59,207 nt of DNA from Candidatus Eiseniibacteriota bacterium (GTDB taxonomy: Bacteria > Eisenbacteria > RBG-16-71-46), in NCBI GenBank assembly GCA_025357055.1, contig JANXPZ010000130.1, forward strand, positions 1 to 59,207, read 5' to 3'. Each line of letters begins with the position of its first letter. The first letter of the stretch is position 1. Of the stretch, positions 5,230-46,487 are shown piece by piece. The notes below the pieces were generated by a model, which was not told the origin of the DNA, ran no database searches, and was given only the letters and a program-made list of their open reading frames with translations. The translations under genes and the position numbers were made by a program.

Positions 5230-6025
5230 GGGACTCGCTCGCATCGTGCTCATGCAGTTCGCTCGCCTTGCGGAAGGCCTCGGCGCCGCAGGTGAAGGTG
5301 CGGAAGAGCCGCATCAGCTCCTCGTGAGAATGACCGTGGCCCTGGAGCACCGCGCTCAGGGAGCCGGTGTTGGCGCTGCCGCGCAGGGGACCGAAGCACC
5401 CGAAGCAGCCGCGCCCGTAGGAAGGACACAGGGCCCCGCAGCCGGTGCGCGTCACGGGGCCGAGGCAGGCCTCGCCGCGGGCCACCGTCAGGCACACCAC
5501 GCCGCGCCGCTTGCAGTCCATGCAGACCGCGTGGCTGGGCAGGAACGGGCGACGTCCGCTGATGAACGCCAGCACCACCTCGAGCAGCTGGTGCTTGTTC
5601 ACCGGGCAGCCCTGCAGCTCGTAGTCCACCTTGACGTGGTGCGAGATGGGCGTGGAGGTCTTGAGCGTCTGGATCCAGTCCGGCGTGGGGTAGACCAGGG
5701 GCACCCAGCTGCCGACCTCGGCGAAATTGCGCAGCGCCTGGATCCCGCCGGCGGTGGCGCAGGCGCCGATGCTGACGAGCACCTTCGAGTCGCGGCGCAC
5801 GGCGTGGATGCGCTCGGCGTCGTGCGGGGTGGTGATCGAGCCCTCGACCAGGGTGAGGTCGTAGGGGCCCCTCAGCACCGCCCGCGACGCCTCCGGGAAG
5901 TTGGCGATCTCCACGGCGCCGGCGACGGCGAGCAGCTCGTCCTCGCAGTCGAGGATGCTCAGCTGGCAGCCGTCGCACGAGGCGAACTTGATGACGGCGA
6001 GGCGGGGCTTGCGCGGGGCGGCCAC
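5216..6025 (-). CDS. hydD: [NiFe] hydrogenase small (delta) subunit
   Basis: Electron-transfer subunit of the soluble hydrogenase, 269 residues. The proximal cluster region shows [23 protein letters not shown] and [11 protein letters not shown]. The C-terminal half has further cysteines ([35 protein letters not shown]) that would bind two more [4Fe-4S] clusters, as in three-cluster small subunits. There is no Tat signal, consistent with a cytoplasmic enzyme. The start is GTG with a strong GGAGG ribosome binding site 6 nt upstream, and the gene begins 1 nt after hydG ends. Confidence 0.93.
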
Positions 6026-6026
6026 C

Positions 6027-6899
6027 TCACACCTCCCGGATGCCGAGCAGCGGCGCCACCCGGTCGTAGCGGAACACCGGCCCGTCCTTGCAGACGAACA
6101 GCGGGCCGAACTGGCAGTGGCCGCAGAAGCCGACCCCGCACTTCATGTTCCGCTCCATCGAGACCCAGACGCTCTCGTCGGGCACGCCGTGGCGCTCCAG
6201 CTCGCGCTGGGTGAAGTGCATCATGATCTCGGGGCCGCAGATGAAGGCCACGGTGTTCGCCGGGTCGAACTGGGCCCGCGGGACGAGCGTCGTGACCACG
6301 CCCACGCGGCCGTGCCAGTCGGCTCCGGCGCGGTCCACGGTCACCTCGACGCTCACGTCGAAGCGGCCGCGCCAGGTCTCGATCTCCTTCGCGAACAGGA
6401 TGTCCTGGGGACTGCGGGCGCCGTACAGCAGGTTCACCCGCCCGAAGCGCTCGCGGTGCTCGAGCATGTGGCAGAGCGCCGGGCGCAGCGGCGCCAGGCC
6501 GATGCCGCCCGCCACGAGCAGCACGTCGCGCCCTTCGGCCAGGCCCACGGGCCAGGGCTTGCCGAAGGGGCCGCGCAGCCCGAGCACGTCGCCGCGCTTG
6601 AGGGTCCGCAGGGTCTTGGTCACGCGACCCGCCGCGCGGATGGTGTGCACGACCCGGTCCACCGTGCCCGAGCACCCGCTCATCGAGAGCGCCGCTTCGC
6701 CCACGCCCGGCGCGAAGAGCATGTTGAACTGCCCCGCCTCGAACGTGAACGGCGGGCCCGCCTCGACCGGGGCCAGCGTCAGCTTGAAGGCGTCGTGGGT
6801 CTCGGGCTCGGTGCGGACGACGCGCCAGGGCGCCGGCTGCATCGGGTCCGTTCGCGTCACGTTCGGGGTGGGGGCTGCGGCCGCGGCCCGTTCACTCAT
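6027..6899 (-). CDS. hydG: Hydrogenase gamma subunit, FAD/NAD(P)-binding oxidoreductase
   Basis: A 290-residue ferredoxin-reductase-like subunit that passes electrons between the hydrogenase Fe-S chain and NAD(P). The FAD-binding beta barrel comes first ([21 protein letters not shown]). The nucleotide-binding fold follows ([27 protein letters not shown]), and the C-terminus has a [2Fe-2S] cysteine set ([15 protein letters not shown], then FVCKDG), as in the PyrK/HydG family. The ATG at 6899 overlaps the cyclic-nucleotide-binding gene by 8 nt. The family is clear; preference for NADP over NAD cannot be judged from the sequence. Confidence 0.92.
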
Positions 6900-7365
6900 G
6901 TTCGCCGTCGTGGTCGCCGTAGAGGTCCAGGAGCTGGATGCTCATCGCCTCGAGCCGGCGCAGGATGAGCTGCGAGAAGCGCTGCATCAGCTCGTAGCCG
7001 AGCTCGGGGTCGTTCGCGAACTTCCCGCGCAGGCACTTGCCGTCGAACATCAGCACGCGCGTGGAGGTGACGGCGTGGATGTCGAAGCGCAGCTGGTAGG
7101 GCGGCACGAGCCACGACCAGCCGACGGCGTCGTTCTCGCCGATGGTCTGGACGGTGAGCTGCCCGCGGCCGGGGGCGTGGATCTCGAGCGCCACCCGGCC
7201 CTGCCGGATGATCCAGAACCGGTCGGCCGGTCCGCCGACGCGACCCATGAACTCACCGGCCTCGAAGCGCGCGTTCGCCGCGCAGCCGGTGATGATCTGG
7301 ATGTGCTCGGGCTTCAGCCCCTTGAAGAGCGGCAGCTCCGACACGATGGGTTCAAGCGTTTCCAC
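6892..7365 (-). CDS. Cyclic-nucleotide-binding-domain protein without a DNA-binding domain
   Basis: A 157-residue protein consisting of one cNMP-binding (CAP_ED) beta-roll, with the usual opening LPLFKGLKPEHIQIITGCA, the EFMGRVGGPADRFWIIRQGRVAL strand pattern and a C-terminal helix. It ends at ~157 residues, before the helix-turn-helix that CRP/FNR proteins carry, so it is unlikely to bind DNA itself. GTG start with a GGAGG site upstream; it overlaps hydB by 14 nt and hydG by 8 nt, so it is made together with the enzyme. A role as a regulatory or structural partner of the hydrogenase is inferred from position. The ligand (cAMP, another nucleotide, or none) is unknown. Confidence 0.85.
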   Translation of the reverse strand: METLEPIVSELPLFKGLKPEHIQIITGCAANARFEAGEFMGRVGGPADRFWIIRQGRVALEIHAPGRGQLTVQTIGENDAVGWSWLVPPYQLRFDIHAVTSTRVLMFDGKCLRGKFANDPELGYELMQRFSQLILRRLEAMSIQLLDLYGDHDGEHE

Positions 7366-8512
7366 GTGATCCCTCCTTCCCGCGCTGGTCTTGACGCAGG
7401 GCGCGGGCTTCCTCGGTGATGTCGATCCCGGCCGGGCACCAGGTGATGCACCGGCCGCATCCGACGCAGCCCGACGAACCGAACTGCTCGTGCCAGGAGC
7501 CGAGCTTGTGGGTGAGCCACTGGCGGTAGCGCGAGCGGCTGGACGACCGCACGTTCCCGCCGTGGATGTAGGTGAAGTCCACCGAGAAGCAGGAGTCCCA
7601 GCGTCGCACCCGGCGACTCAGGCCGGCCGCGAGGTCGGTGAAGTCCTCGGTCGTGACGCAGAAGCAGGTCGGACAGACCGAGGTGCAGTTGCCGCACGCC
7701 AGGCAGCGCGCGGCGGTCACGTCCCAGTGCGGGTGCTCCGGGTTCCGCGCGAGCAGGGCGGGCAGGCCCTCGGTCTCGAGCGTGCGGCCCATCCCCGCGG
7801 TGGCGCGCGCCACGGCCGCCTGCACCGCGCCGGACTCGGCCGCCGTGGTGTCGGTGGCAGGCAGTTCGGCGAGGATCTCGCCGCCGCGCTCGCTGGCGGC
7901 CTCCGCCACGAACAGGTGACGACCGTCCTCGAGCAGCTCGGTCAGGACCAGGTCGTGCCCCGAGCGGACCTCGGGACCGGTGCCCATCGAGGCGCAGAAG
8001 CAGGTGCGGCCTGCACGGCCGCACTGCACCGCGATCAGCAGGGCGCCCTCGCGCCGCGCCCGGTAGACCGGGTCGGTCGGGGTGCCGCCGAGCAGGACGC
8101 GGTCCTGCACCGCGATGGCCGCCAGCTCGCAGGCGCGCAGACCGAAAAAAGCCAGTCGCGTGGGCTGCGGCACGCACTCCAGCAGTCGCAGGGCGGGGCC
8201 CTCGCGTCGCGCGTTCAGCAGCGTGACCGCCGCCGGATGCAGCGAGGCCTTGGGCGAAGCCGGCCCCACGGTCCAGTCGAAGAGCGCCGGTCCGTCGGAG
8301 CGGACCAGGCGGTAGCGCCCGGCCTCCTGCTCGTCGGTCCAGCCGGCAGGCAGTTCGTCCGGGGTCGAGAGCTCGTCCCAGACGATGGCGCCGTCGCGGG
8401 CCACCGGTCCCATGACCGTGTAGCCGCGGGCGCGCAGGACCTCGAAGAGCCGGTGCAGGTCCTTCCGCTCGATGGTGGACTGCCGTGTCGCCGCTGCCGG
8501 GCGTTGTTGCAT
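7352..8512 (-). CDS. hydB: Hydrogenase beta subunit, 4Fe-4S ferredoxin type
   Basis: A 386-residue iron-sulfur subunit of the HydB/sulfhydrogenase beta family. It links the diaphorase subunit to the delta subunit and in archaeal relatives is tied to sulfur reduction. The C-terminal third has two ferredoxin motifs, [16 protein letters not shown] and [16 protein letters not shown], and the central region carries [10 protein letters not shown]. The ATG at 8512 is chosen because a GAGGAA site precedes it and the homologous sequence starts there; the frame stays open to 8683 without similarity. First gene of the hydrogenase operon. Confidence 0.9.
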
Positions 8513-8602
8513 GGGTTCCTCGGGCTCGTGCGGGGGCAATGCCGCCACCCCCACGCGAGCACCTTCTGCCCCGCGTCGGGAAGCGGCCAAACTCGCAACA
8601 AA

Positions 8603-8617
8603 GGCACAACCTGTGCC
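8603..8617 (-). promoter_or_regulatory. 15-bp palindrome with sigma54-like spacing upstream of hydB
   Basis: GGCACA and TGTGCC flank a 3-nt centre about 90 nt upstream of hydB. Read on the minus strand it is GGCACAGGTTGTGCC. This places GG and GC 10 nt apart, as in -24/-12 sigma54 promoters, with partial agreement to GGCACG-N4-TTGC. It could equally be a dimeric repressor or activator operator. Confidence 0.35.
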
Positions 8618-8881
8618 GTTCGCGCGCCCGCCTGCAGGTCGCGCCAGCGGAGGGGCGGGAACCCACAAGTCCCGGTGTTCCAACGGACGCCGGGTCGGGC
8701 AGGGTCCGCCCGGGATACCGGGCCGGGCCCGCTCCTGACGCCCGTGGCCGGGCCGGGCGGCAGGGCATGACGCGGCTGACAGGCCGCCATCGAGCCGGGC
8801 GTGCCTTTCGAGGACCGCGCTCGCGGGCCAGGGTGATGGGCGAGCGAAACGTCGGTACGGGCCTGCTCGATGACCGCCTGC

Positions 8882-28651: not shown

Positions 28652-29018
28652 GGTCGCGTCGCGCGAACGCGGAACAAGGCGGGCCGGTCGGGCACCGCGG
28701 CGGCGAAGCCGCCGAGGTCAGGGCCGGCCCGCTTCGCCTTCGGGCGCGCGGGCATCGCGCCGGGTCGGTACGTTCCCATCGTGGTCCGGCAAGGGGTAGC
28801 CGGTGATGGTGGTGGGCGAGCGCATGGTGCCTCTGCTCGCCCACCACCATCACTGGCTACCCCACGACCTCGGCACCTCTTCAGCACCGCCACCTCGGCA
28901 CTATTCCCTCGGCACCGCTTTCTGCGGGTTGCCGGATGCCCGGGCGCGTGTTAGTGGTCCGTGACGTGTCTGGATCCCTTCGCATCTGTCGCACCGCGCC
29001 TCTGATCCGGGTCCCGGG
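28652..29018. other. Hairpin-rich intergenic region
   Basis: 367 bp between two rightward genes. A 7-bp hairpin with a GAA loop (CGGCGGC/GCCGCCG, 28698-28714) sits inside a longer imperfect palindrome (about 28679-28732) and may end the debranching-enzyme transcript. The long hairpin at 28793-28863 follows. Three copies of CTCGGCAC occur between 28868 and 28917. A weak promoter for the next operon may be TTGCCG, 16-17 nt, TTAGTG/TAGTGG near 28929-28957. No gene seen. Confidence 0.5.
28793..28863 (+). repeat. Long hairpin H1 with conserved-type loop
   Basis: Arms 28793-28821 and 28835-28863 (29 bp each) pair with a single G-T mismatch. The loop is GCATGGTGCCTCT (28822-28834), closed by GAGC/GCTC. 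The stem sequence is unrelated to those of the hairpins at 41240-41307 and 41359-41432, but the loop and closing tetranucleotide match theirs. No T-tract follows. It could stop transcription, but its length and loop conservation suggest a repeat element. Confidence 0.85.
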
Positions 29019-31007
29019 ATGCTGCTGATCCTCGCCGGCCTGGGGCTGCTCGTGCTCGGCGCCATCGCCTCCCTGATGGCCGCACGCTCGCCGCGCCGGG
29101 CCACGCTCCTGGGCGTGGGCGGCACCATCGCCGGCTGCGCCTGCGCCCTGGTCCCGGTCGTGCGCGTCCTGCTCGGCCACGCCCCCGAGAGCCTGCGGCT
29201 GCCCTGGAGCGTCCCCTTCGGTGTCTTCGCACTTGGCCTGGACGGGCTCTCGGGCTTCTTCCTGCTGCCCATCCTCGCGCTCTCGGCGCTCGCCGCGCTC
29301 TACGGGAGCGAATATCTCGGCGCCTTCCGCGGGCGCGTGGTCCCCGCGCGGGCCTGGCCCTTCTTCGCGCTGCTCGTCGCGGCCATGGCGCTGGTGGTGC
29401 TGGCGCGCAACGGCGTGCTGTTCCTGGTGGCGTGGGAGATCATGTCGCTGGCGGCCTACTTCCTGGTGGTGCTCGAGGACGAGACCCCGGCGGTGCGCTC
29501 CGCGGGCTGGACGTATCTCGTCGCCACGCACCTGGGCACGGCCTTCCTGATCGTGATGTTCGTGGTGCTGGGACATGAGGCGGGCTCGCTCGACTTCGAG
29601 CGCTTCGGCGCCGCCCTGCCGCTCGCCGCCCCGCTGGCCGGCCTGGTCTTCGTCCTCGCGATGATCGGCTTCGGCACCAAGGCCGGCTTCATGCCCCTGC
29701 ACGTCTGGCTGCCCGAGGCGCATCCGGCCGCACCCAGCCACGTCTCCGCCGTGATGTCGGGGGTGATGATCAAGCTCGGCATCTACGGCCTGCTGCGCAC
29801 GCTCACGTTCCTGGGCCCGCCGCCGGCCTGGTGGGGCTGGACGCTGGTGGCCGTCGGACTGACCTCGGGCGTGCTCGGCGTGCTCTTCGCCCTGGCCCAG
29901 CACGACCTCAAGCGGCTGCTGGCCTACTGCAGTGTCGAGAACATCGGGATCATCGCCCTGGGGATCGGCGGGGGTCTGCTCGGCGTGCACCACGGGTCGG
30001 CGGCGCTGGCCGTGCTGGGCTTCGCCGGGGCGCTGCTGCACGTCGTGAACCACGCCCTGTTCAAGGGCCTGCTCTTCCTCGGCGCGGGCGCGGTCGTGCA
30101 CGCCACCGGCACGCGCGAGATGGACCAGCTCGGCGGACTCCTGAAGCGCATGCCGTGGACCGGCTCGCTGTTCGTGGTCGGAGCCGCGGCGATCTGCGGC
30201 CTGCCGCCGCTCAACGGCTTCGCCAGCGAGTTCCTCGTGTTCCTCGGGGCGTACCAGGGCGTGCTGCACCCCGCGGCGGCGGTGGCGGGGCCCGCGCTCG
30301 CCGTGCTGGCCGGGCTCGCGCTCATCGGTGGCCTGGCGGCGGCGTGCTTCGCCAAGGTCATCGGCGTTGTGTTCCTGGGCGAGGCCCGCAGCGGGCACGT
30401 CGCGCAGGCGCACGACCCGGGCACGGCGATGACGCTGCCCATGGTGGTGCTGGCGTCGGGCTGCGTGCTGGTGGGCCTCGCGCCCGTCCTGCTGGTGGGG
30501 CGCATGGGCGGCGCGCTCGAGCCGCTGACGCGGCTGCCGGCGGTGGCGATCGAGCTGGCGCTGGCGCCCGCGTTGCTGCCGCTCCAGTGGATCACGCTCG
30601 CGGCGGCCGTGCTGCTCGCCCTGGTCGGGACGCTCTCGATCTGGCGGCGCCGGCGCCTCGCCGGCCGGCCGGTGCGCGAGGCGCTCACCTGGGATTGCGG
30701 TTACGCCCGGCCCACGCCGCGCATGCAATACACCGGCTCGTCTTTCGTGCGGCCGCTCACGCGGCTCTTCGGCGGGTTCCTGCGCACGCGCACCACGCGG
30801 GTCGCGCCCGTCGGTCCCTTCCCCGGGCCGGCGGCGCTCGCCACCGCGACGCCGGACGTCTTCCGCGACGCGCTCTTCCGCCCCGCGTTCCGCATGGCCT
30901 CCGGGACGCTGGCGAAGCTGCGCTGGCTGCAGCACGGGCGGGTGCAGCTCTACGTCCTCTACATCCTGCTCACGCTGGTCGTGCTGCTGGTGTGGAAGCT
31001 GAGATGA
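29019..31007 (+). CDS. HyfB-like proton-conducting membrane subunit (complex I / hydrogenase 4 family)
   Basis: A 662-residue polytopic membrane protein of the NuoL/HyfB antiporter-like family. Conserved residues for ion transfer lie in VAWEIMSLAAYFLV (Glu), FGTKAGFMPLHVWLPEAHPAAP (Lys), FALAQHDLKRLLAYCSVENIGII and NHALFKGLLFLGAGAV. The C-terminus carries the HyfB-type extension with WDCGYARPTPRMQYTGSSF. First gene of the membrane complex operon; it overlaps the next gene by 4 nt. It would translocate protons or sodium using energy from the peripheral subunits encoded downstream. Confidence 0.9.
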   Translation: MLLILAGLGLLVLGAIASLMAARSPRRATLLGVGGTIAGCACALVPVVRVLLGHAPESLRLPWSVPFGVFALGLDGLSGFFLLPILALSALAALYGSEYLGAFRGRVVPARAWPFFALLVAAMALVVLARNGVLFLVAWEIMSLAAYFLVVLEDETPAVRSAGWTYLVATHLGTAFLIVMFVVLGHEAGSLDFERFGAALPLAAPLAGLVFVLAMIGFGTKAGFMPLHVWLPEAHPAAPSHVSAVMSGVMIKLGIYGLLRTLTFLGPPPAWWGWTLVAVGLTSGVLGVLFALAQHDLKRLLAYCSVENIGIIALGIGGGLLGVHHGSAALAVLGFAGALLHVVNHALFKGLLFLGAGAVVHATGTREMDQLGGLLKRMPWTGSLFVVGAAAICGLPPLNGFASEFLVFLGAYQGVLHPAAAVAGPALAVLAGLALIGGLAAACFAKVIGVVFLGEARSGHVAQAHDPGTAMTLPMVVLASGCVLVGLAPVLLVGRMGGALEPLTRLPAVAIELALAPALLPLQWITLAAAVLLALVGTLSIWRRRRLAGRPVREALTWDCGYARPTPRMQYTGSSFVRPLTRLFGGFLRTRTTRVAPVGPFPGPAALATATPDVFRDALFRPAFRMASGTLAKLRWLQHGRVQLYVLYILLTLVVLLVWKLR

Positions 31008-31927
31008 CCGCGCTCGCCGCGCTGCCGCCGCTCTGCGCGCTGGTGCTCGCGCCCCTGCTGCCCGGGATCATCACCCGCACGCGCTGCTGGCTCACCGGGC
31101 GCCGGGGCCCGCCGCTGCTGCAGACTTACACGGACATCGGCAAGCTGCTGGCGAAGGGCGCAGTCTACAGCCGCACCACCACCGCGGTGTTCCGCGCCGG
31201 CCCGCTGGTGGGCCTCGCCGCGGTCGTGACGGCCGCGGCGATGGTGCCCTTCGGCACCGCGGCCGCGCCGCTGGCGTTCCCCGGCGACCTCATCCTGCTC
31301 TGCGGCCTGCTGGCGCTGATGCGCTTCGCCACCGTGCTCGCCGCGCTCGACACCGGCTCGGCCTTCGAGGGCATGGGCGCCAGCCGCGAGGTGCAGTTCG
31401 CCGCCCTCGCCGAGCCCGCGCTGGTGCTGGCGCTGGCGGTGGTCGTGCGCAGCACCGGGAACCTGTCCCTCAGCGGCGCCTTCGGCGCGCTGACGTCCGC
31501 CGCCTGGGCGAGCGAGGGCGCGGCCCTGGTGCTGGTGCTCGGCACGCTGTTCGTGGTCTACCTGACCGAGAACGCCCGCGTGCCGGTGGACGACCCGGGC
31601 ACGCACCTCGAACTGACCATGATCCACGAGGTCATGGTGCTCGACCACGGCGGGCCCGACCTCGGGCTCATCCACTACGCCGCCGCGCTCAAGCTGTGGG
31701 TGCTGGGCGCGCTGCTGGTCGGCGTCGCGCTGCCGGTGCAGGACCTCATGCCCTGGGCGGGGCTGCTCGTCGCGCTCGCGGGGATGCTCGTGCTGGCGGT
31801 GCTGGTCGGTGTGGTGGAGACGGTGATGGCGCGGCTGAAGCTGCTGCGCGTGCCGCAACTGCTGGTCGGCGCGACCGCGCTCGCGGTGCTGGCGGTGGTG
31901 CTGGTGATGCGGGGCCGGGTCGGATGA
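31004..31927 (+). CDS. HyfC-like membrane subunit (NuoH/respiratory complex I subunit 1 family)
   Basis: A 307-residue membrane protein, homologue of NuoH/HyfC that anchors the peripheral arm to the membrane. Typical blocks: LLQTYTDIGKLLAKGAVYS, FEGMGASREVQFAALAEPAL, TENARVPVDDPGTHLELTMIHEVMVLDHGGPDL. ATG overlaps the previous stop (ATGA). The acidic loop residues of the family are present. Length agrees with E. coli HyfC. Confidence 0.92.
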   Translation: MTALAALPPLCALVLAPLLPGIITRTRCWLTGRRGPPLLQTYTDIGKLLAKGAVYSRTTTAVFRAGPLVGLAAVVTAAAMVPFGTAAAPLAFPGDLILLCGLLALMRFATVLAALDTGSAFEGMGASREVQFAALAEPALVLALAVVVRSTGNLSLSGAFGALTSAAWASEGAALVLVLGTLFVVYLTENARVPVDDPGTHLELTMIHEVMVLDHGGPDLGLIHYAAALKLWVLGALLVGVALPVQDLMPWAGLLVALAGMLVLAVLVGVVETVMARLKLLRVPQLLVGATALAVLAVVLVMRGRVG

Positions 31928-32105
31928 ACGAGGGCCGCGGGATGAAGGACTCGGCCGCGTCGGGCCCTGCTCGCGGCCACGGGGCTCGAGGCGGTGGCGT
32001 GCGCCTTCGTCAAGATCGGCATGCTCTGGATGCGCCGGTCGTGAGGTCGCCTGCCATGCACGGGACGCCATCGGGGCCGGGGCTGAGAGCCGACAGGAGC
32101 CACCC

Positions 32106-32783
32106 ATGCAACTGACCCTCCGCGAAGCGACCACCTACCTCGGGGTCAACGAGGACACGGTGCGGCGCTGGATCAAGAGCCGTGGGCTGCCGGCGCACCG
32201 CGTGAACGAGCGGCTCATGCTCAACGCGATCGAGCTCTGGGAGTGGGCGACCGAGAACGGCGTCGCGGTCTCGCGCGACCTGCTCGAGCGGGAGCGCGGC
32301 TCGCCCGAGTCGGTCCCACCGCTCGGCGACATGCTCGAGGCCGGGGGCATCCACCACGACGTCGGCGGCGAGGACCGCTCGGCGGTGCTGCGCGAGGTGG
32401 TGGCGCGCCTGCCGCTGCCGCCCGGCACGGATCGCGCGTTCGTCGAGGCGGTGCTCGAAGCCCGCGAGGCGATGGGCTCGACCGGGATCGGCGCCGGCAT
32501 CGCCATCCCGCACGTGCGCAACCCGCTGCTGCTGGGCGCGGGCGAGCCGCGCGTGATGCTCTGCCTGCTGCGCCACCCGATCGAGTTCGACGCGGTGGAC
32601 GGGCTGCCGGTCTACGCGCTCTTCACCGTGGTCAGCTCCACGGTGCCGGCGCACCTGAAGATCCTCGCGCGGCTGGGCTTCGCGCTCCACGACCCGGAAC
32701 TGCGCGGGCTGCTGCGGGACCGCGCCCCGGCCGCCGACCTCCTGTCGCGCGTGCGCGCGATCGACGCGCCGAAGGGGGGCTGA
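32106..32783 (+). CDS. Excisionase-type HTH fused to a PTS EIIA(Ntr)-like domain
   Basis: A 225-residue fusion. Residues 1-55 form a MerR/excisionase-type DNA-binding domain (LTLREATTYLGVNEDTVRRWIK, then RLMLNAIELWEWA). Residues ~80-220 form a fructose/nitrogen PTS EIIA-like domain whose active-site region GIGAGIAIPHVRNPLL keeps the phospho-accepting His. No PTS EI, HPr or sugar EIIC is nearby. It is inserted between the HyfC-like and HyfE-like genes with its own AGGAG site and is followed 2 nt later by the HyfE-like gene. Inferred role: phosphorylation- or metabolite-dependent control of this operon or complex. Confidence 0.88.
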   Translation: MQLTLREATTYLGVNEDTVRRWIKSRGLPAHRVNERLMLNAIELWEWATENGVAVSRDLLERERGSPESVPPLGDMLEAGGIHHDVGGEDRSAVLREVVARLPLPPGTDRAFVEAVLEAREAMGSTGIGAGIAIPHVRNPLLLGAGEPRVMLCLLRHPIEFDAVDGLPVYALFTVVSSTVPAHLKILARLGFALHDPELRGLLRDRAPAADLLSRVRAIDAPKGG

Positions 32784-32785
32784 GC

Positions 32786-33427
32786 ATGGAACGGCTCGGC
32801 GACGCGCTCCTGCTGCTGGTGCTGCTCACGGACCTCGCGCTGCTGGTCACCGACCGGCTGAGCGGCTCCATCCGGCTGGTCGCGCTCCAGGGCGTGCTGC
32901 TCGGGCTGGCGCCGCTCACCCTGGCGCACGGCGCCTCGCTCCACCTGGCCGCCATCGTGGCCGGGACGATCGCCATCAAGGCGGTGGTGCTGCCGCGCAT
33001 CCTGCTGTGGGCGATCCGTGAGGCGGAGGTGCGGCACGAGCGCCAGCCCTCGATCGGCCATCTGCCCTCGCTGCTGCTGGGGCTGGCGGTCACGGGCATC
33101 GCCTTCCTCGTCGCGGCCCGCCTGCCGGCGCTGCCGGGGAACTCGCTGCCGCTGCTGATCCCGGTCGCGCTGTCCACGCTGATGATCGGCTTCCTGCTGC
33201 TCACCAGCCGGCGCAAGGCGCTCTCGCAGGTGCTGGGCTACCTGGTGCTCGAGAACGGGATCTACCTCTTCGGGCTCACGCTGGCCGACCGCCTGCCGCT
33301 GCTGGTCGAGATGGGCGTGCTGCTGGACGTGTTCGTGGGCGCGTTGATCATGGGTCTCGTGGTCTTCCAGATCCAGCGCGAGCTCGAGACGCTCGACTCG
33401 CGCGAACTGTCGCAGCTCACCGACTGA
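32786..33427 (+). CDS. HyfE-like membrane subunit
   Basis: A 213-residue membrane protein of the HyfE family (related to NuoK in its C-terminal part). Helices include IAIKAVVLPRILLWAI, STLMIGFLLL and the conserved stretch QVLGYLVLENGIYLFGLTL, followed by VEMGVLLDVFVGALIMGLV. The ATG at 32786 follows GGGGGG. It overlaps the next gene by 1 nt (TGATG). Part of the Hyf/Ehr-like membrane arm. Confidence 0.9.
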   Translation: MERLGDALLLLVLLTDLALLVTDRLSGSIRLVALQGVLLGLAPLTLAHGASLHLAAIVAGTIAIKAVVLPRILLWAIREAEVRHERQPSIGHLPSLLLGLAVTGIAFLVAARLPALPGNSLPLLIPVALSTLMIGFLLLTSRRKALSQVLGYLVLENGIYLFGLTLADRLPLLVEMGVLLDVFVGALIMGLVVFQIQRELETLDSRELSQLTD

Positions 33428-34869
33428 TGCTCCTGCCCGCGCTGGTCCTGGTCCCGCTGCTCGGCGCGCTCGCCGCGTACCTCGACCGCTCGACCGCACG
33501 GCGCTCGCTCTGGATCGTCGTCTGCGCCGTGCTCCACTTCGGCCTGGTGGCGCTGGCCTGGTGCCTGCGGCCGGCGCCCGCGGGCCCCGGCTGGCTGGCG
33601 TTCGATCCGCTCGGCGGGCTGGTGCTCACGCTCACGAGTGTCGTGTTCCTCGCGGTCGCGCTCTACTCGGTGGGCTACCAGCGCCACGAGCGGCTGCGCG
33701 GGGGGCGGGCGTACGCGAGCTGCCTGCTCGCCTTCCTGGCCGCCGCGACGGTGATCACGCTGACCCGGCACTTCGGGCTGCTCTGGGTGGCGATGGAAGC
33801 CACCACGCTCGCGACCGCGCCGCTCATCTACGATCCCGCGGACCGTCGCTCGCTCGAGGCGGTCTGGAAGTACCTGGTGGTCTGCTCCGTGGGCATCGCG
33901 GTCGCGCTGCTCGGCATCTTCTTCCTCGCCACCGCGCAGATCGCGGGGGGTGCCGCCACCGGGCGCCCGCTCCTGCTGGAGGACCTGCTGGCCGCGGGCC
34001 CGCTCCTGCACCCGGCCTGGCTGCGGGGCTCGTTCGTCTTCGTGCTCATCGGCTTCGGCACCAAGATGGGCCTGGCCCCGATGCACACCTGGCTGCCCGA
34101 CGCGCACGGCGAGGCGCCCTCGCCGATCTCGGCGCTGCTCTCGGGGGCGCTGCTGAACCTGGCGTTCCTGGCGATCCTGCGGGAGCTGGCGGTGCTGCGG
34201 GCGGCGGGCCAGGGTGACTTCGCGGGACCGCTGCTGGTGGGCTTCGGACTGTTCTCCGTCGCGGTGGCGGCCGCGTTCCTGTTCGGGCAGGGCAACTACA
34301 AGCGCATGCTGGCCTACTCGAGCGTGGAGCACATGGGGATCCTCGCGGTGGGCGCGGGGCTCGCCGGGGTCGCGACCTACGGCGCGTTGCTGCACGTGCT
34401 GAGCGCCTCGCTCGCCAAGGCGTTGCTCTTCCTGGTCGCGGGCAACGTGTGGCAGGCCACCGGCACCAAGCGCACGCGCGAGGTCACGGGCCTGGCGCGC
34501 CGGCTGCCGGTGAGCGCCGCACTGCTGGTCGCGGGGTTCCTGGCCATCAGCGGCTCGCCGCCCTTCGGCCCGTTCCTGAGCGAGTTCACCCTGCTCACGG
34601 GCGCGGTGCGCTCGGGTGCCACCGGCACGGTCGTGGCGCTGCTGACGCTGCAGGCGCTGATCTTCATCTCGATGGGCTCGGCCGTGCTCGGCATGGTGCT
34701 GGGGCGCCCGGCCGCGGGGACCACGCCCGCGCCGCGTGAGAGCCTCTGGCTGGTCGCGCCGCCGGCGGCGCTGCTCGCGCTCGTGCTGCTGCTGGGCGTC
34801 TGGCTCCCGGAGGGCCTGCGGCAGGCGCTGGCCGCGGCCGCCGTGGGGATCGGGGGCACGGCGCCATGA
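33427..34869 (+). CDS. HyfF-like proton-conducting membrane subunit (NuoM/L family)
   Basis: A 480-residue antiporter-like subunit, the second in this operon. Key segments: FGLLWVAMEATTLATAPLIY (Glu), GFGTKMGLAPMHTWLPDAHGEAPSP (Lys), FLFGQGNYKRMLAYSSVEHMGIL, LAKALLFLVAGNVWQATG and ISGSPPFGPFLSEFTLL. It would supply a second ion pathway. Slightly shorter than E. coli HyfF. Coupled to neighbours by 1-nt and 4-nt overlaps. Confidence 0.92.
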   Translation: MLLPALVLVPLLGALAAYLDRSTARRSLWIVVCAVLHFGLVALAWCLRPAPAGPGWLAFDPLGGLVLTLTSVVFLAVALYSVGYQRHERLRGGRAYASCLLAFLAAATVITLTRHFGLLWVAMEATTLATAPLIYDPADRRSLEAVWKYLVVCSVGIAVALLGIFFLATAQIAGGAATGRPLLLEDLLAAGPLLHPAWLRGSFVFVLIGFGTKMGLAPMHTWLPDAHGEAPSPISALLSGALLNLAFLAILRELAVLRAAGQGDFAGPLLVGFGLFSVAVAAAFLFGQGNYKRMLAYSSVEHMGILAVGAGLAGVATYGALLHVLSASLAKALLFLVAGNVWQATGTKRTREVTGLARRLPVSAALLVAGFLAISGSPPFGPFLSEFTLLTGAVRSGATGTVVALLTLQALIFISMGSAVLGMVLGRPAAGTTPAPRESLWLVAPPAALLALVLLLGVWLPEGLRQALAAAAVGIGGTAP

Positions 34870-36380
34870 GACTTCCCGGGCCCGAGGGCTTCCGCAACCG
34901 GCGCAGCATCCCGTGGGCGGAGGTGCCGTGCCGCGAGGTGGAGGAGTTCCGCGCCGAGGTCGCGGGCGCGATCGCCGAAGGGGCGCGGCTGGTCTCGTTC
35001 TTCGGCATGCCCGAGGACGACGCGCGCACGCGCCTGGTCGCCGTGCTCGCCGACGACGATCGGGCGACGCTCGGGGTGAGCAGCGCGGTGGTCGGTGCGG
35101 GCTATCCCGCGCTGACGCCCGAATGCCCGCAGGCCCACCTCTTCGAGCGTGAGATCGCCGAGCAGTGCGGCGTCATGCCCGAGGGACACCCGTGGCTCAA
35201 GCCGGTGCGCCGCCACCCGCCCGACCACCTGCCGTCCGCGCGGCGCGCGGCGGAGGCGGATCGCGAGGCCTACCCGTTCTTCCAGGTGACGGGGGAGGAG
35301 GTGCACGAGGTGGCGGTGGGGCCGGTGCACGCGGGCATCATCGAGCCCGGGCACTTCCGCTTCCAGGCCCACGGCGAGGACGTGCTGTTCCTCGAGATCG
35401 TGCTGGGCTACCAGCACCGCGGGGTCGAGCGCCTGCTCGAGACGCTGCCGCCCGCGCAGGCCATGCTGGTCGCGGAGTCCATCGCCGGCGACACGGCGAT
35501 CGGCCACGCCGAGGCGTTCTGCGGCGCGTTCGAGGCGCTGTCGCGCTGCCGCAAGCCGCCGCGGTCGCAGTCGGTGCGCGGTTGCGCGCTGGAGCTCGAG
35601 CGGCTGGCGAACCACATCGGTGACCTGGGCGCGCTCGCCGGCGACGTGGCCTTCACCCCGACGGCCGCGATCTGCGGGCGCGTGCGCGGCGACGTGCTCA
35701 ACCTGCTGCTGGCGCTCTCGGGCAACCGCTTCGGGCGTGGCCTGGTGCGCCCGGGCGGCGTGGGATTCGATCTGACGGCGGCGCTGGCCGGGGAGCTGCG
35801 CGCGCGCCTCACCGCGATCGCCGCGGAGTTCGAGCAGGCGGCGGGGCTCTTCTTCGGGAGCGAGTCGGTGCAGGGGCGGATCGAGGGCACGGGCGTGGTG
35901 CCGGCCGCGAGCTGCCGGGAGCTGGGCTTCGTCGGCCCCACGGCCCGCGCCTCGGGCGTGGCGCGCGACGTGCGCCAGGACCATCCCTGGGGCCTCTATC
36001 GCTTCGCCCACATCCCCACCGCGATCGAGACCACGGGCGACGTCGCGGGGCGCGCGATGGTGCGCGTGATCGAGGCGCGGCGCTCCTTCGGGTTCCTGCA
36101 GGAGCAGCTGGCGGCGCTGCCGTGGGGCGGCGAGCTGCGCGTCATTCCCGGAGCGCTGGTGCCCGGCGAACTGGTGGTGGCCCTGGCGGAGGGCTGGCGC
36201 GGCGAGATCGCGCACGTCGCCGTGACCGACGAGGGCGGGCGCGTGCGGCGCTGGAAGGTCACGGACCCGTCGTTCCACGACTGGACCGCGCTGGCCGTGG
36301 CGATGGCCGGCACGCCCATCTCGGACTTCCCGCTCTGCAACAAGAGCTTCAACCTGTCGTACGCCGGCCATGACCTGTAG
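34866..36380 (+). CDS. HyfG-like large subunit lacking NiFe ligands (Ehr-type, NuoC-NuoD fusion)
   Basis: A 504-residue fusion of a NuoC-like N-terminus (~1-150) and a NuoD/hydrogenase-large-like C-terminus. Where HycE/HyfG read ERICGICGFAH, this protein reads ESIAGDTAIGH, so both first-motif cysteines are replaced (Ala, Thr). At the C-terminus the DPCxxC motif is replaced by ISDFPLCNKSFNLSYAGHDL, leaving one Cys. The protein therefore cannot hold a normal NiFe centre. This matches the energy-converting-hydrogenase-related (Ehr) class, whose reaction is unknown. The rest of the fold is well preserved (GVERLLETL, LERLANHIGDLGALAGDVAF), so it is not a decaying pseudogene. Confidence 0.9.
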   Translation: MRLPGPEGFRNRRSIPWAEVPCREVEEFRAEVAGAIAEGARLVSFFGMPEDDARTRLVAVLADDDRATLGVSSAVVGAGYPALTPECPQAHLFEREIAEQCGVMPEGHPWLKPVRRHPPDHLPSARRAAEADREAYPFFQVTGEEVHEVAVGPVHAGIIEPGHFRFQAHGEDVLFLEIVLGYQHRGVERLLETLPPAQAMLVAESIAGDTAIGHAEAFCGAFEALSRCRKPPRSQSVRGCALELERLANHIGDLGALAGDVAFTPTAAICGRVRGDVLNLLLALSGNRFGRGLVRPGGVGFDLTAALAGELRARLTAIAAEFEQAAGLFFGSESVQGRIEGTGVVPAASCRELGFVGPTARASGVARDVRQDHPWGLYRFAHIPTAIETTGDVAGRAMVRVIEARRSFGFLQEQLAALPWGGELRVIPGALVPGELVVALAEGWRGEIAHVAVTDEGGRVRRWKVTDPSFHDWTALAVAMAGTPISDFPLCNKSFNLSYAGHDL

Positions 36381-36455
36381 ACGCGGAGGAACTGCGGACG
36401 TCCTGCGTCGCGGGCCGGGAGCGCGAAGGGCGCGGTGTGCGCAGCGGGGGTCGTC

Positions 36456-37229
36456 ATGTTGAAGTACCTGCTCGGCCGGCTGCGCCGGGGCAGCCACACG
36501 CTGCCCTACCCGCGCACGGTCCCCACGCTGCCCGAACGCTACCGCGGCCGGCCGGTGCTCGATCGCACGCTCTGTCCGGACGGTTGCAGGGCCTGTGCGG
36601 CCGCGGCGCCCACCGGCTTCCTGCGGCTGGACGCCGGCGGCGTGCCCGCGCTGGACCTGGGCGCCTGCCGCTTCAGCCCGGAGGAGTCCGCTGCGTGCCC
36701 GGCCAGCGCGATCCGCTTCAGCGGTGAGCACCGCATGGCCACCTCCGCGCGCGAAGCGCTCGTCACACCGACGGGCGAGGTCGAGCTGGCGCACGCGCTG
36801 GAGGCTTCGGCGCGCCGGCTCTTCGGGCGCTCGCTCCGGTTGCGCTCGGTGGTGGCGGGCAGTTGCGGAGGCTGCGAGCCGGACATCGCGGTGCTGGGCA
36901 CCGTGGTCTTCGACCTCGCGCGCTTCGGCATCCAGTTCGTGGCCTCGCCGCGACACGCGGACGGCATCGTCGTCACGGGCGTGGTCAACCCGAACATGCG
37001 CCTGGCGCTCGAGAAGACCTGGCAGGCCGTGCCCGAGCCACGGCTCGTCATCGCGGTGGGCGCCTGCGCCCTCTCGGGCGGGCCGTTCGCGGCGAGCCTG
37101 CAGGGCGGGACGGGCGTGCCGGCGGAACTGCCGGTGGACCTGTGCGTGCCGGGCTGCCCGCCCCATCCGCTCACGCTGCTGGACGGGCTGCTGCGCCTGC
37201 TGGGCAGGCTCGAACGTGGAGAGCGCTGA
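36456..37229 (+). CDS. Ferredoxin-like + NuoB/HycG-like small subunit fusion
   Basis: A 257-residue peripheral subunit. The N-terminal ~100 residues resemble a HycF/NuoI-type 2[4Fe-4S] ferredoxin but with incomplete cysteine sets (LCPDGCRACAAAAP has three of four; GACRFSPEESAACPASAI has two of four). The C-terminal part is NuoB/HycG-like with VAGSCGGCEPDIAVLG, RFGIQFVASPRHADGIVVTG, AVGACALSGG and CVPGCPPHPLTLLDGLL, so the N2-type cluster cysteines are kept. The ATG at 36456 follows GGGGG. It starts 76 nt after the large subunit. Last gene of the complex operon; it ends 12 nt from the convergent udk gene. Confidence 0.88.
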   Translation: MLKYLLGRLRRGSHTLPYPRTVPTLPERYRGRPVLDRTLCPDGCRACAAAAPTGFLRLDAGGVPALDLGACRFSPEESAACPASAIRFSGEHRMATSAREALVTPTGEVELAHALEASARRLFGRSLRLRSVVAGSCGGCEPDIAVLGTVVFDLARFGIQFVASPRHADGIVVTGVVNPNMRLALEKTWQAVPEPRLVIAVGACALSGGPFAASLQGGTGVPAELPVDLCVPGCPPHPLTLLDGLLRLLGRLERGER

Positions 37230-42064: not shown

Positions 42065-44305
42065 CTAGGTCCGCGCGACGGCGTCGGCCCAGCGGTTGAA
42101 AAGCCGCAGCGCGCGGTCGGCGGTGCGGAAGGTGGGCACGCCGCCCTGCTCGAGCACGGCGGCCATCGGGTCGTAGAGGTCGCCGGCGTCCACCACCGCG
42201 ACCCAGGGCTTGGTGGTCGCGTGATAGAGCCGCACCAGGCGGTTCGCGATCGAGTCCTCGCGGGTCAGGTCCTCGCCGTGGGCCCCGCCCTTCACCAGCG
42301 TGTTGAGCGCCATGGTCATGGGCACGCAGCCGACTAGTCCCGCGTCCACGCCCTCGTCGGCCAGCACGGCCCGCGCGATCTCCTCGTAGTCGCCGTCGCC
42401 GACGATGGGCGTGAGGTCCATCGGGTCCTGCACGCTGACGATCTCGGCGATGCGCGCGCGCTTCAGCACCTCGCCGAGCGCGCCGACCGTGGCGGGGGAG
42501 AAGCCGGCGAGCGTGAACGCGCCCAGGTTGTCGGCGATGGCCACGCACTCGAAGCCGGCGTTGGAGAGCGCGCCGAGCCGCCGTCCCGCGGGGCGCCGTC
42601 TGCCGAGCGCGACGAACAGGCGCACCAGGTCCTCGAAGTCCTCGAGCGTGTCGGCCAGCACGATGCCCGCGGCCCCGGCCAGTCGCCGGGTCACCGCGTA
42701 GTCGCCGGCGACCGAGGCGGTGTGGCTCGCGGCCGCGGCTGCGCCGGCGCTGGTGCGCCCGGCGCGGTAGAGGATGACCGTGCGCCCGCCCGCCACGATC
42801 CGGCGCGCGGTCTCGAGGAAGCGCAGCCCGTCGAGCGGGCGGAAGCCCTCGAGGTAGACGGCGAAGATCTCGACCGCCGGGTCGTCCTGGAGGAAGTCCA
42901 GGTAGTCGGCCGCGGTCAGGTCCATCTGGTTGCCGATGGTCAGGATGACGCGCGGATTCAGCGTCGCGAGCTTGTTCGCCTTCGAGACCGCGAAGGCGCC
43001 GCTGCCGGCGATGAACGCCACCGGGCTCTCGGCGCCGCGCCCGAGCGGCAGCTTGTGGTCGGGGATGAAGAGCGTGTTGTAGCGCCCCGGCACCGAGCGC
43101 ACGCCCAGGCAGTTGCCGCCGTTGATGACGGGGCCGCCCCAGGCGGTGGCGCGCGAGTCGGCGATGGCCTGGCGCATGCGGGCGACCAGCGGCTCGCTGC
43201 CGGACTTCTCCTCGAGCCCCCCCGGGATGAGGATGACGCTCTCGGCGCGCTGGCCCTCGGCGATCGCGGCGATGGCCTCGGGGGCCTGCGCGGCGGAGAT
43301 GCTGAGGATGAGCAGGTCCTGCCGCGCGGGCAGGGCCTCGAGCGACGGCACGCACTTCACCCCGTCGATCTGCTCGCTGCCCGGCTTGACGATGGTGATG
43401 TCCGCGGCGGGGAAGCCGTCGGCGAGCAGATTGCGCAGGATCTGCCGCCCGGGGTTCATGCCTTTCTCCGACACGCCCATCACCGCGGCGGTGCGCGGCT
43501 GCAGCAGCCGCCCGATCTTCGCCACCGGGCGCGCCGCCGGCAGGACGGGCGCGGGCGGCCCGAGCTTGAGCAGGGCGTCGAGCGCGACGAAGCGCCCGTC
43601 GGCGAGCACCAGCGGGTTGACCTCGAACTCGGCGATCGGGTCGGGCACGAACGCCACGGCCAGTTCGAGGAAGCGGCCGACGATCTCCGCGAGCCGGGCC
43701 AGCGGCACGAGCGCCGGGCGGCCGCGTCGCGGCTCGGTCACGAGCCGCACGACCGCCACCCTCGAGAGTGCGCGCTCGATCTCCCCGGCGCCGGTGAGAG
43801 CGGGCGAGAGCAGCGCGAGCGAGCGGTCCTCGCGGATGCTCTGCGCCAGGAACTCGGTGTGGATGCCGCCCGCGCCCAGCGTGACGACCGGGCCGAAGTC
43901 GGCGGTCCAGCGCATGCCGAGCAGCAGCTCGTGGCCGGGCTCCGCTTGGTGGGGGACGAATTCCATCAGCAGGAAGCCGTCCACGTCCTGCCCGGCGAAG
44001 CGCTGTTCCATCCCGGCGAGGCCGGCGCGCAGGGCGTCGGGCGTGTTGTCGAGGATGGCGACGCCGCTGGCCTCGGTCTTGTGGAGGATCCCCGGCGAGA
44101 CCACCTTGAGCACCGCGCGCGCGCCGGGGAAGGGCGGCGATCCCAGGCGCGCCGCATCCGCCGACCCCGCGAGCAGGATCCGCCGCGGGACGGGGATGCC
44201 GGCGGCCTCGAGCAGGTCCATGCCCTCGGGCTCGGTCAGCACGCCCGCGGCGCGATGGCGGGCGTTCGCGAGCAGGCTCGCGATCCGTGGCCGGTCGAGG
44301 CTCAC
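42065..44305 (-). CDS. Acetate/acyl-CoA ligase (ADP-forming), fused beta-alpha chain
   Basis: A 746-residue NDP-forming acyl-CoA synthetase that makes ATP from acyl-CoA, ADP and phosphate. The N-terminal ~230 residues are the ATP-grasp (beta) domain (AVLKVVSPGILHKTEASGVA, LLLGMRWTADFGPVVTLGAGG, FEVNPLVL). The rest is the alpha part with a CoA-binding Rossmann domain (AAVMGVSEKGMNPGRQILRN), ligase domains (GPVINGGNCLGV) and the phospho-His loop ASHTASVAGDYAV. Domain order is beta-alpha, the reverse of many fused homologues. It overlaps iorB by 4 nt. Next to indolepyruvate oxidoreductase it probably uses aryl- or indole-acetyl-CoA. Confidence 0.9.
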   Translation of the reverse strand: MSLDRPRIASLLANARHRAAGVLTEPEGMDLLEAAGIPVPRRILLAGSADAARLGSPPFPGARAVLKVVSPGILHKTEASGVAILDNTPDALRAGLAGMEQRFAGQDVDGFLLMEFVPHQAEPGHELLLGMRWTADFGPVVTLGAGGIHTEFLAQSIREDRSLALLSPALTGAGEIERALSRVAVVRLVTEPRRGRPALVPLARLAEIVGRFLELAVAFVPDPIAEFEVNPLVLADGRFVALDALLKLGPPAPVLPAARPVAKIGRLLQPRTAAVMGVSEKGMNPGRQILRNLLADGFPAADITIVKPGSEQIDGVKCVPSLEALPARQDLLILSISAAQAPEAIAAIAEGQRAESVILIPGGLEEKSGSEPLVARMRQAIADSRATAWGGPVINGGNCLGVRSVPGRYNTLFIPDHKLPLGRGAESPVAFIAGSGAFAVSKANKLATLNPRVILTIGNQMDLTAADYLDFLQDDPAVEIFAVYLEGFRPLDGLRFLETARRIVAGGRTVILYRAGRTSAGAAAAASHTASVAGDYAVTRRLAGAAGIVLADTLEDFEDLVRLFVALGRRRPAGRRLGALSNAGFECVAIADNLGAFTLAGFSPATVGALGEVLKRARIAEIVSVQDPMDLTPIVGDGDYEEIARAVLADEGVDAGLVGCVPMTMALNTLVKGGAHGEDLTREDSIANRLVRLYHATTKPWVAVVDAGDLYDPMAAVLEQGGVPTFRTADRALRLFNRWADAVART

Positions 44306-44874
44306 GCGGAGACCCTCCAGCCCGCCTCGAAGGCGGCGAAGTTCATCTCCAGCGCTCGCTCGCCCTTCGCCTCGAAGGTCTGACGGATGGCGCCGTCGAA
44401 CGACTCGCGCCGGAGCGGCAGCAGGTGCGCCGCGGCGCCGACCATGACGGTGTTCCTGCTCAGCACGTCGCCGGCCTCGCGCGCGAGACGCTCGGCCTCG
44501 ACCAGCACGGCGCGCGGCAGGCGCCGCAGCCGGGCGAGGATCTCCTCCTTCGGCGGGTAGTCCGGGATGTTGATGAACGGATCCACCGACGTGACCACGG
44601 TGGCGGTGGGCGAGAGGTACGCCAGGTAGCGCAGGCTCTCGAGCGGCTCCATCGAGAGGATCAGGTCGGCCGTGCCGAGCGGGATCAGGTCGCTCGCGAT
44701 GACCTGGTCGGAGAGCCGCAGGTGGGAGAGCACCGCGCCGCCGCGTTGCGCCATCCCGTGCACCTCGGACTGCTTGACGTGAAGGCCCTCGGCCACGGCG
44801 GCCCGGCCGATCAACGCGGCCAGCGACAGCACGCCCTGCCCCCCCACACCCGCCAGCATGATGTCGATCTTCAT
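44302..44874 (-). CDS. iorB: Indolepyruvate ferredoxin oxidoreductase, beta subunit
   Basis: A 190-residue gamma-type domain of 2-oxoacid:ferredoxin oxidoreductases. Characteristic start IMLAGVGGQGVLSLAALIGRAA and the block VKQSEVHGMAQRGGAVLSHLRLS. Together with IorA it oxidises aryl-pyruvates to aryl-acetyl-CoA and reduces ferredoxin. The ATG at 44874 overlaps the iorA stop by 4 nt. Length is typical. Confidence 0.93.
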   Translation of the reverse strand: MKIDIMLAGVGGQGVLSLAALIGRAAVAEGLHVKQSEVHGMAQRGGAVLSHLRLSDQVIASDLIPLGTADLILSMEPLESLRYLAYLSPTATVVTSVDPFINIPDYPPKEEILARLRRLPRAVLVEAERLAREAGDVLSRNTVMVGAAAHLLPLRRESFDGAIRQTFEAKGERALEMNFAAFEAGWRVSA

Positions 44875-46487
44875 GACGGCTTCACCTCCACGAGCTTGCG
44901 CCTGCGGCGCGCGGTCTCCAGGCACTCGCGCACGGCGATCACCACCGACAGGCCCGGGTGCGCGAACTCGCCGCGCAGCAGCTCGGCGATCTGCGGCACC
45001 CGGCGCGGCAGGACCTCGACCACGTGCAGGTGTCCGGGATCCACGCCCAGCCCCAGCACGATGTCCTTCAGGCGCGCCGACGGCGCGATGGACTCCTGCC
45101 CGCCGGTCATGGCCGTGGTCTCGTTGTCGAGGATGATCAATGTCATGTCGGCGTCCTCGTGCACCGCGTCGAGCAGTGGCGTGAGTCCCGAATGCAGGAA
45201 CGTGCTGTCCCCGATGACCGCCACGGCCGGGCGGAAGCCGGCCTCGGAGGCGCCCTTGGCCATGCCCACCGAGGCGCCCATGCAGACGCACGATTCGATG
45301 GCGTCGTAGGGCGGCAGGGCGCCCAGCGTGTAGCAGCCGATGTCGGCGGTCACGGTGCTCTGGGCCTGGCCCGCGAGCGCCTGCTTGAGCGCGTGGTACA
45401 TGTGGCCGTGGGAGCAGCCCTGGCAGAGCTGCGGCGGCCGCGTCGGGAGCGCCAGGTCGCCCGGGTTCGTGAGGGGCCGGGCCGGCAGTCCCAGCGCCGG
45501 ACGCACGTTGTCGGGCGTCAGTTCGCCCTCGAGCGGCACCTCGCCCGTCAGCTTCCCGAGGATGGGCAGCGGCGTGTCGAGCAGCCCGCGCAGCAGGCGC
45601 TCGACCAGCGGATAGCCCTCCTCGAACACCAGCAGCCGCTTCACCTGCCCCGCCAGCCGGCGGATCAGGGCGAGCGGGAGCGGGTAGGCGCCGATGTGCA
45701 GGTGCGATGGACGGCTCGCGAGTTCGCGCGCGTTCTCCTCGAAGTAGTTGCGCGCCAGTCCGGTGGTGATCACGCCCAGCTCGCGGTCGTCCGGGTTGAG
45801 CGTGAGCCGGTTCCAGCGGCAGTCCTCGCTCCAGGCGACCATCTCCTGCTGGCGGCCGAGCAGGTCGTGCCACTGGCGCCGGGCGTGGCTCGGCAGCAGG
45901 ATCCACGACTGCGGCCGCAGGGCCTTGCGCACCGGGTTCTCGGGCCGCGGCTCGGCGGCCACCTCGATGGCGGTGCGGCTGTGCGCGAGCCGGGTCACCA
46001 GCCGCAGCATCACGGGAACGGCGAAACGCTCGGAGAGGTCGAAGGCTGCGGCGGTCATGTCGTAGGCCTCCTGCTGCGTGGCGGGCTCCAGGCACAGGAC
46101 CCGCGCGAAATCGGCGTAGAAGCGGCTGTCCTGCTCGTTCTGCGAGGAGTGCATGCCCGGGTCGTCGGCGACCGCGACCACCAGCCCGCCGTGCGTGCCC
46201 ACCAGCGCCGCGTTGACGAACGGGTCGGCGGCGACGTTGAGGCCGACGTGCTTCATCGAGACCAGTGCCCGCCGGCCGACGAAGCAGGCGCCGAGCGCCT
46301 CCTCCATCGCGGTCTTCTCGTTGGCGCACCAGGCCGCGAACGGGCGGCCGTGCCTGCGGCGGAACTCGAGCAGGTACTCGAGGATCTCGGTCGCTGGCGT
46401 GCCCGGATAGGCGTACGCCGAGGACACCCCGGCGTGCACCGCGCCGAGCGCGACACATTCGTCTCCCAACAGGATCCTGCGGGGCAT
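44871..46487 (-). CDS. iorA: Indolepyruvate ferredoxin oxidoreductase, alpha subunit, without C-terminal ferredoxin domain
   Basis: A 538-residue thiamine-diphosphate enzyme. The N-terminal pyrimidine-binding domain has AYAYPGTPATEILEYL and SMKHVGLNVAADPFVNAA. The C-terminal TPP domain has CQGCSHGHMYHAL, TADIGCYTLGALPPY, MGASVGMAKGA and VIGDSTFLHSGLTPLLDAV, ILDNETTAMTGGQ. It stops after VVIAVRECLETARRRRK, just where usual IorA proteins (~600-650 residues) continue into an 8-Cys 2[4Fe-4S] ferredoxin domain. The stop overlaps the iorB start in the coupled ATGA form, which argues against a sequencing error. GGAGG precedes the ATG at 46487. Confidence 0.92.
   Translation of the reverse strand: MPRRILLGDECVALGAVHAGVSSAYAYPGTPATEILEYLLEFRRRHGRPFAAWCANEKTAMEEALGACFVGRRALVSMKHVGLNVAADPFVNAALVGTHGGLVVAVADDPGMHSSQNEQDSRFYADFARVLCLEPATQQEAYDMTAAAFDLSERFAVPVMLRLVTRLAHSRTAIEVAAEPRPENPVRKALRPQSWILLPSHARRQWHDLLGRQQEMVAWSEDCRWNRLTLNPDDRELGVITTGLARNYFEENARELASRPSHLHIGAYPLPLALIRRLAGQVKRLLVFEEGYPLVERLLRGLLDTPLPILGKLTGEVPLEGELTPDNVRPALGLPARPLTNPGDLALPTRPPQLCQGCSHGHMYHALKQALAGQAQSTVTADIGCYTLGALPPYDAIESCVCMGASVGMAKGASEAGFRPAVAVIGDSTFLHSGLTPLLDAVHEDADMTLIILDNETTAMTGGQESIAPSARLKDIVLGLGVDPGHLHVVEVLPRRVPQIAELLRGEFAHPGLSVVIAVRECLETARRRRKLVEVKPS

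Follow-up and report, generated by a model that had tools for sequence, protein, structure and literature searches.

What does a hydrogenase-4-type membrane complex do when its large subunit has no cysteines to hold a [NiFe] center? This question is raised by a complete hyfBCEFG-(HI) operon on the plus strand (29019–37229) of the window, that is, of the whole 59,207-nucleotide stretch of DNA analyzed here. The window belongs to a 3.32 Mb genome (96.8% complete) from an organism whose nearest named relatives are Gemmatimonadota, as judged by profile search and by the HyfG tree. The operon starts with genes for a NuoL/MrpA-type antiporter-like subunit (hyfB, 29019–31007; Proton_antipo_M, 4e-53) and a NuoH-like subunit (hyfC, 31004–31927; NADHdh, 3e-29). 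HyfB scores 609 bits against the NCBIfam model of hydrogenase 4 subunit B, which is under the cut-off of 667. The gene of a PtsN-like regulator with HTH_17 and PTS_EIIA domains (HTH-EIIA, 32106–32783; PF12728 and PF00359) separates this pair from the genes for a membrane subunit with a NuoK-like part (hyfE, 32786–33427; Oxidored_q2, 2.5e-6; hydrogenase 4 membrane subunit, 91 bits), an antiporter-like subunit (hyfF, 33427–34869; Proton_antipo_M, 1e-44) and the large subunit (hyfG or EhrL, 34866–36380; Complex1_49kDa and Complex1_30kDa). The last gene is a hyfH–hyfI fusion (36456–37229; Oxidored_q6, 1e-25) that codes for a HyfH/NuoI-like N-terminus and a NuoB/MbhJ-like C-terminal domain; a homologue of this protein (HyfHI) was matched to 6cfw_J, 7z0s_G and 7z0s_F. 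Since several of these reading frames, all on the plus strand, overlap or nearly abut, the arrangement is operon-like.

Complexes of this kind are already known. Ehr (Ech/energy-converting hydrogenase-related) complexes have been described from Geobacter, Nitrospira and Methylacidiphilum (PMC7894505, PMC10284858, PMC12342949, PMC6688271) and share with the window a NiFe-free group 4 large subunit and a Hyf-type membrane arm. In the window, too, the absence of [NiFe] cysteines coincides with antiporter-like, NuoH-like and HyfE-like subunits encoded in one operon. Unlike the published examples, the window complex belongs to a clade without the ligands of a medial Fe–S cluster, its hyfB–hyfC pair apparently stems from another Ehr lineage, and HTH-EIIA is located within its operon.

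The large subunit is translated from an ORF of 504 residues with its own ATG, which overlaps the stop codon of hyfF. The sequence-only reading had described a subunit devoid of [NiFe] cysteines, and both of its diagnostic motifs were located in HyfG: ESIAGDTAIGH at about residues 204–214, where group 4 hydrogenases have ERxCGxC, and ISDFPLCNKSFNLSYAGHDL at residues 485–504, with NLSYAGHD at the position of the C-terminal CxxC of group 4 enzymes. In an alignment of 90 Ehr HyfG sequences, cysteine is found at neither of the C-terminal ligand positions (498 and 501) in any member and at position 207 in two members. Residues D209, S498 and G501 are invariant, W444 (89/90) and C491 (86/90) nearly so, and G208 is near-invariant. 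Because the ligand cysteines are missing throughout the family and their replacements are this well conserved, the alignment argues that the loss is neither chance nor decay. The same conservation shows a fixed remodelling of the active-site pocket (AGD, W444, C491, S498, G501), and as far as sequence can tell, the window complex cannot be a [NiFe] hydrogenase. The subunit types are those of E. coli formate hydrogenlyase and hydrogenase 4, but HycE has all four [NiFe] cysteines that define group 4 hydrogenases and HyfG has none. Neither does HyfG conform to respiratory complex I: Tyr87 of the complex I large subunit binds quinone, and the residue aligned with Tyr87 of the T. thermophilus protein is Gly208. 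The predicted HyfG structure (pLDDT 91, pTM 0.92) is less confident at residues 152–161 and 501–504, the loop and the tail at the former active site. Its closest PDB match is E. coli HycE in formate hydrogenlyase (7z0s; TM 0.88, 27% identity). We also considered a new metal site built from C270, C285, C449, C491 and C500. This candidate was rejected, since the covariation of C285 and C500 reflects one clade split and C491 is not strictly conserved, being replaced by Asn or Ile in four members.

A profile search of the genome collection returned more than 570 HyfG relatives from many phyla, including Gemmatimonadota, Verrucomicrobiota, Planctomycetota, Omnitrophota, Myxococcota, Geobacteraceae, Spirochaetota and others. 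The phylogeny that had been proposed as a check of the initial assignment places HyfG outside HycE, Mbh, Ech and NuoD and outside the Cys-bearing group 4 proteins. Together with the missing cysteines, this result upholds the identification as an Ehr complex instead of a hydrogenase: the 90 Ehr HyfG proteins form a single clade (SH-aLRT 100) that contains the Geobacteraceae sequences (the G. sulfurreducens sequence itself was left out), in a tree where some joins connect long branches. The four cysteines are likewise missing from plasmid-borne relatives in Rhizobium, Cupriavidus, Azospirillum, Rhodococcus, Allomeiothermus and others, most of which diverge close to the base. The sister group in this sampling consists of five proteins from the same taxonomic family (L033–L037) with ERxCGxC and CYAC motifs. 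These proteins keep all four NiFe-type cysteines, and HypD or full-length HypF was found in none of their five genomes (G013, G001, G018, G008, G005); their cysteines may bind a group different from NiFe(CN)2CO.

Among 20 genomes searched, HypD and full-length HypF occur only in G000, G002 and G040. Both are absent from eight Ehr genomes without any other NiFe hydrogenase over the cut-off (G006, G007, G009, G012, G014, G019, G033, G043), a distribution which indicates that Ehr needs no NiFe maturation by HypD and HypF. The window genome does contain both proteins, as expected from its own group 3b-like NiFe hydrogenase (3907–8683, minus strand; RICGIC and DPCISC), the only match to a NiFe large-subunit family in this genome. 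The sequence-only reading had drawn this hydrogenase, a ferredoxin-reducing oxidoreductase (indolepyruvate-type, 44302–46487) and Kdp into the context of the complex. They do share the contig with the operon without being part of it, and they did not recur as conserved neighbors in 90 Ehr loci; KdpA was not found in the nine nearest loci (7–20 kb each). We therefore rejected all three as Ehr partners. No electron-donor gene is conserved near the 90 loci.

The claim that the fold beyond the active site is intact holds for HyfG, but not for the electron-input subunit, where most ligands of one [4Fe-4S] cluster are gone. A complete chain linking the ferredoxin domain with the N2-type cluster is not part of the published definition of Ehr, but it is usual: 58 of 86 HyfHI proteins have all 12 Fe–S cysteines, eight in the ferredoxin-like part and four for the N2-type cluster. 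Because so many members keep this set, the ancestral Ehr surely moved electrons. The window protein retains the ligands of cluster I (C40, C44, C47, C81) and of the N2-type cluster (C137, C140, C204, C234). Three of the four ligands of cluster II, which by homology to NuoI we take to be the medial N6b cluster, are replaced by A51, S74 and E77. All ten members of the window clade (the Gemmatimonadota clade) have S/A74 and E77 within an [SA]P[ED]E motif, and all ten have intact N2-type ligands; cluster I is gone in some. This pattern fits a single loss of the medial cluster in the ancestor of the clade, the branch of which has a support of 100 in the HyfG tree. With no cluster II in between, the distance between cluster I and N2 should exceed what fast tunnelling allows, and the wire from ferredoxin to N2 looks cut in this clade. 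The predicted structure of the window HyfHI is of low confidence (pLDDT 66) and was set aside. The loss of the medial ligands weakens the ferredoxin part of the earlier model and argues against a ferredoxin-driven pump in the window organism.

About four to five Ehr lineages besides the window clade have lost ligands of the N2-type cluster instead. Two genera of the window's class (L029, L030) keep one of the four cysteines, a Planctomycetales member (L123) and a Verrucomicrobiia member (L118) keep none, and three further members keep one (L103), two (L079) and three (L053). Most N2-less members are MAG sequences, which counts against the reading preferred below. L137 comes from an isolate: plasmid pMESIL01 of Allomeiothermus silvanus codes for a small subunit without any N2-type cysteine. 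This N2-less Ehr-like subunit is present twice on the plasmid, identical over 268 residues. The third ligand is changed to Glu in L118, L123 and L137. In the seven members other than L137, the C-terminal HyfHI region retains its other 44 invariant positions without exception, and 92–96 of 96 HyfG invariants persist in ligand-losing members. The probability that the losses hit ligands by chance is 5e-6 for L118 and likewise 5e-6 for L123. By parsimony, the N2 ligands changed seven times on the HyfG tree and five times on a HyfI tree computed after masking of the ligand columns; well-supported branches force four and two of these changes, respectively. Since the other invariants are kept and several independent changes are seen on both trees, N2-type ligand loss is, on this evidence, a specific and recurrent event and not decay. 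Since the pump residues also stay in place, the pattern indicates that the Fe–S chain of Ehr is dispensable for whatever selection keeps.

These pump residues are E140, K221, K298, K349 and E404 of HyfB and E124, K213, K292, K331 and E386 of HyfF, all conserved with the N2-less members included. A charged HyfC loop, ENARVPVDDPGTHLELTMIHEVMVLDHGG, is near-invariant across the family. HyfB, HyfC, HyfE and HyfF are complete, so that the membrane arm is intact as had been proposed, and the conserved Glu and Lys residues keep ion translocation by the window complex plausible. The best matches of HyfB fall outside the window's own clade. The hyfB and hyfC products (29019–31927) are closer to other Ehr lineages (49–62% for HyfB, as opposed to about 42% to the nearest relatives), and HTH-EIIA, HyfE, HyfF, HyfG and HyfI are 62–74% identical to the nearest relatives. 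The hyfB–hyfC block thus seems to have been replaced by transfer, which would make hyfB xenologous to the rest of the operon. A remnant gene in the gap at 31928–32105 was considered, but no homologue was found. Between a glycogen-debranching-like gene and hyfB lies a near-perfect inverted repeat (28793–28866; RNA fold of −75 kcal/mol, z −9), parts of which recur in about a dozen other contigs.

Apart from the hyf genes, HTH-EIIA, overlooked by the sequence-only reading, is the one gene that widely accompanies Ehr in the 90 loci. In most relatives it stands immediately upstream of hyfB; its odd location between hyfC and hyfE in the window would be explained by the replacement of hyfB–hyfC. The sequence upstream of hyfG was long enough for a comparison in 63 loci; the gene lies within 7 kb upstream in 46 of them and slightly farther away in several more. 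The phospho-accepting His136 of GIAIPH is kept in 62 of 63 homologues. A full-length copy (>170 bits) was found in 9 of 11 Ehr genomes and in none of 48 genomes without Ehr among 59 related genomes, the two Ehr exceptions being G033 and G043. The genomes of L029 and L030 also lack HTH-EIIA. The window protein resembles PTS-Ntr EIIA (PtsN) in its EIIA domain with the phospho-accepting His, and HPr and EI-type genes are found in the window genome; it differs from PtsN by fusion to an excisionase-type HTH domain and by its link to Ehr. PTS-Ntr EIIA proteins regulate K+ uptake, among other targets (PMC9239096, PMC13104625), so that controlling an ion-translocating complex would be in character. 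A 2026 review of PTS-Ntr makes no mention of helix-turn-helix, DNA-binding or fused proteins, or of hydrogenase (PMC13104625). SulP anion transporter genes lie directly upstream of HTH-EIIA in two loci (L073, 2330–4237; L075, 2815–4464) and near the Ehr operon in L048, L122 and L123, where the L122 protein carries a PII domain.

How, then, might this complex work? Our best reading, to which we give not quite an even chance, is a PTS-controlled, hydrogenase-4-type complex I-like machine that translocates H+ or another cation, that is not driven here by ferredoxin oxidation through its own chain and that is possibly not redox-driven at all. The ion would still pass through HyfB and HyfF, and the coupling reaction would be located at the HyfG/HyfC interface. 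As sister lineages have lost the N2 cluster and nothing else, this coupling probably needs no electron transfer and could be a cycle that is ligand-gated or linked to the pmf. Depending on the energy/carbon or K+ state, EI, HPr and HTH-EIIA would switch the expression of the complex or act on it directly. The wider proposal that several Ehr lineages including the window's, under PTS/HTH-EIIA control, pump ions without an electron chain, having lost first NiFe and then a medial or N2-type cluster while keeping the rest, is only a little less likely than this.

The window complex may still take electrons from a partner that binds close to the N2-type cluster, the ligands of which are kept. A redox-driven pump in which another donor feeds this cluster of HyfI directly, and quinone or another small molecule is reduced in the rebuilt pocket, is a rather doubtful though substantial alternative. 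The N2-type ligands are intact throughout the ten members of the window clade and the complex I fold is kept; the genome encodes complex I and a terminal oxidase, hence a respiratory chain exists; and the invariant Trp next to the catalytic-site Arg might make stacking contacts with a ring. The Ehr subunits of G. sulfurreducens increase with formate (PMC7894505), which fits a redox role and counts against our preferred reading. Against redox coupling speak the lack of a conserved donor gene, the Gly in place of the quinone-binding Tyr, and the sister lineages that lost these very ligands with nothing else changed.

We consider it quite improbable that the complex consumes pmf for a non-redox reaction, as the DAB CO2-uptake complex does, with bicarbonate or some other anion possibly involved. 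DAB2 is a precedent for non-redox chemistry driven by a NuoL-like subunit (PMC13144422), and the SulP genes adjoining HTH-EIIA or close by would suit an anion; however, no more than 6 of the 90 loci were found to have such genes, the window not being among them, and the replacement of C491 leaves no strictly conserved zinc-site candidate. Similarly improbable is a reductase of the MBS type, with the proximal [4Fe-4S] cluster itself as the site where sulfur species are reduced. The MBS complex of Pyrococcus furiosus (6u8y) is likewise a complex I-like pump without a NiFe site, but it retains C85 and C385, two of the four cysteines of the large subunit, and a full three-cluster chain from ferredoxin (PMC7684303), whereas in the window all four are missing and the chain is broken. 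That the complex is a nonfunctional, decaying relic, as the lost NiFe and Fe–S ligands might suggest, deserves next to no credence in view of 95 out of 96 HyfG invariants kept in the window, complete and overlapping ORFs, and hundreds of relatives across phyla.

The link to HTH-EIIA and the repeated, ligand-specific loss of Fe–S clusters, including the medial cluster in the window, appear to be new; the literature, which we covered in part, yielded no account of either, and priority is not certain. For the complex I family, the way in which ion pumping is powered by electron transfer is one of the central questions. With Fe–S clusters lost repeatedly, it becomes conceivable that Ehr complexes can move ions without transferring electrons. 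Members without Fe–S clusters that keep pump and pocket residues are natural experiments on which parts of the coupling machinery work without electrons, and the conserved EIIA regulator provides a first handle on when Ehr is used.
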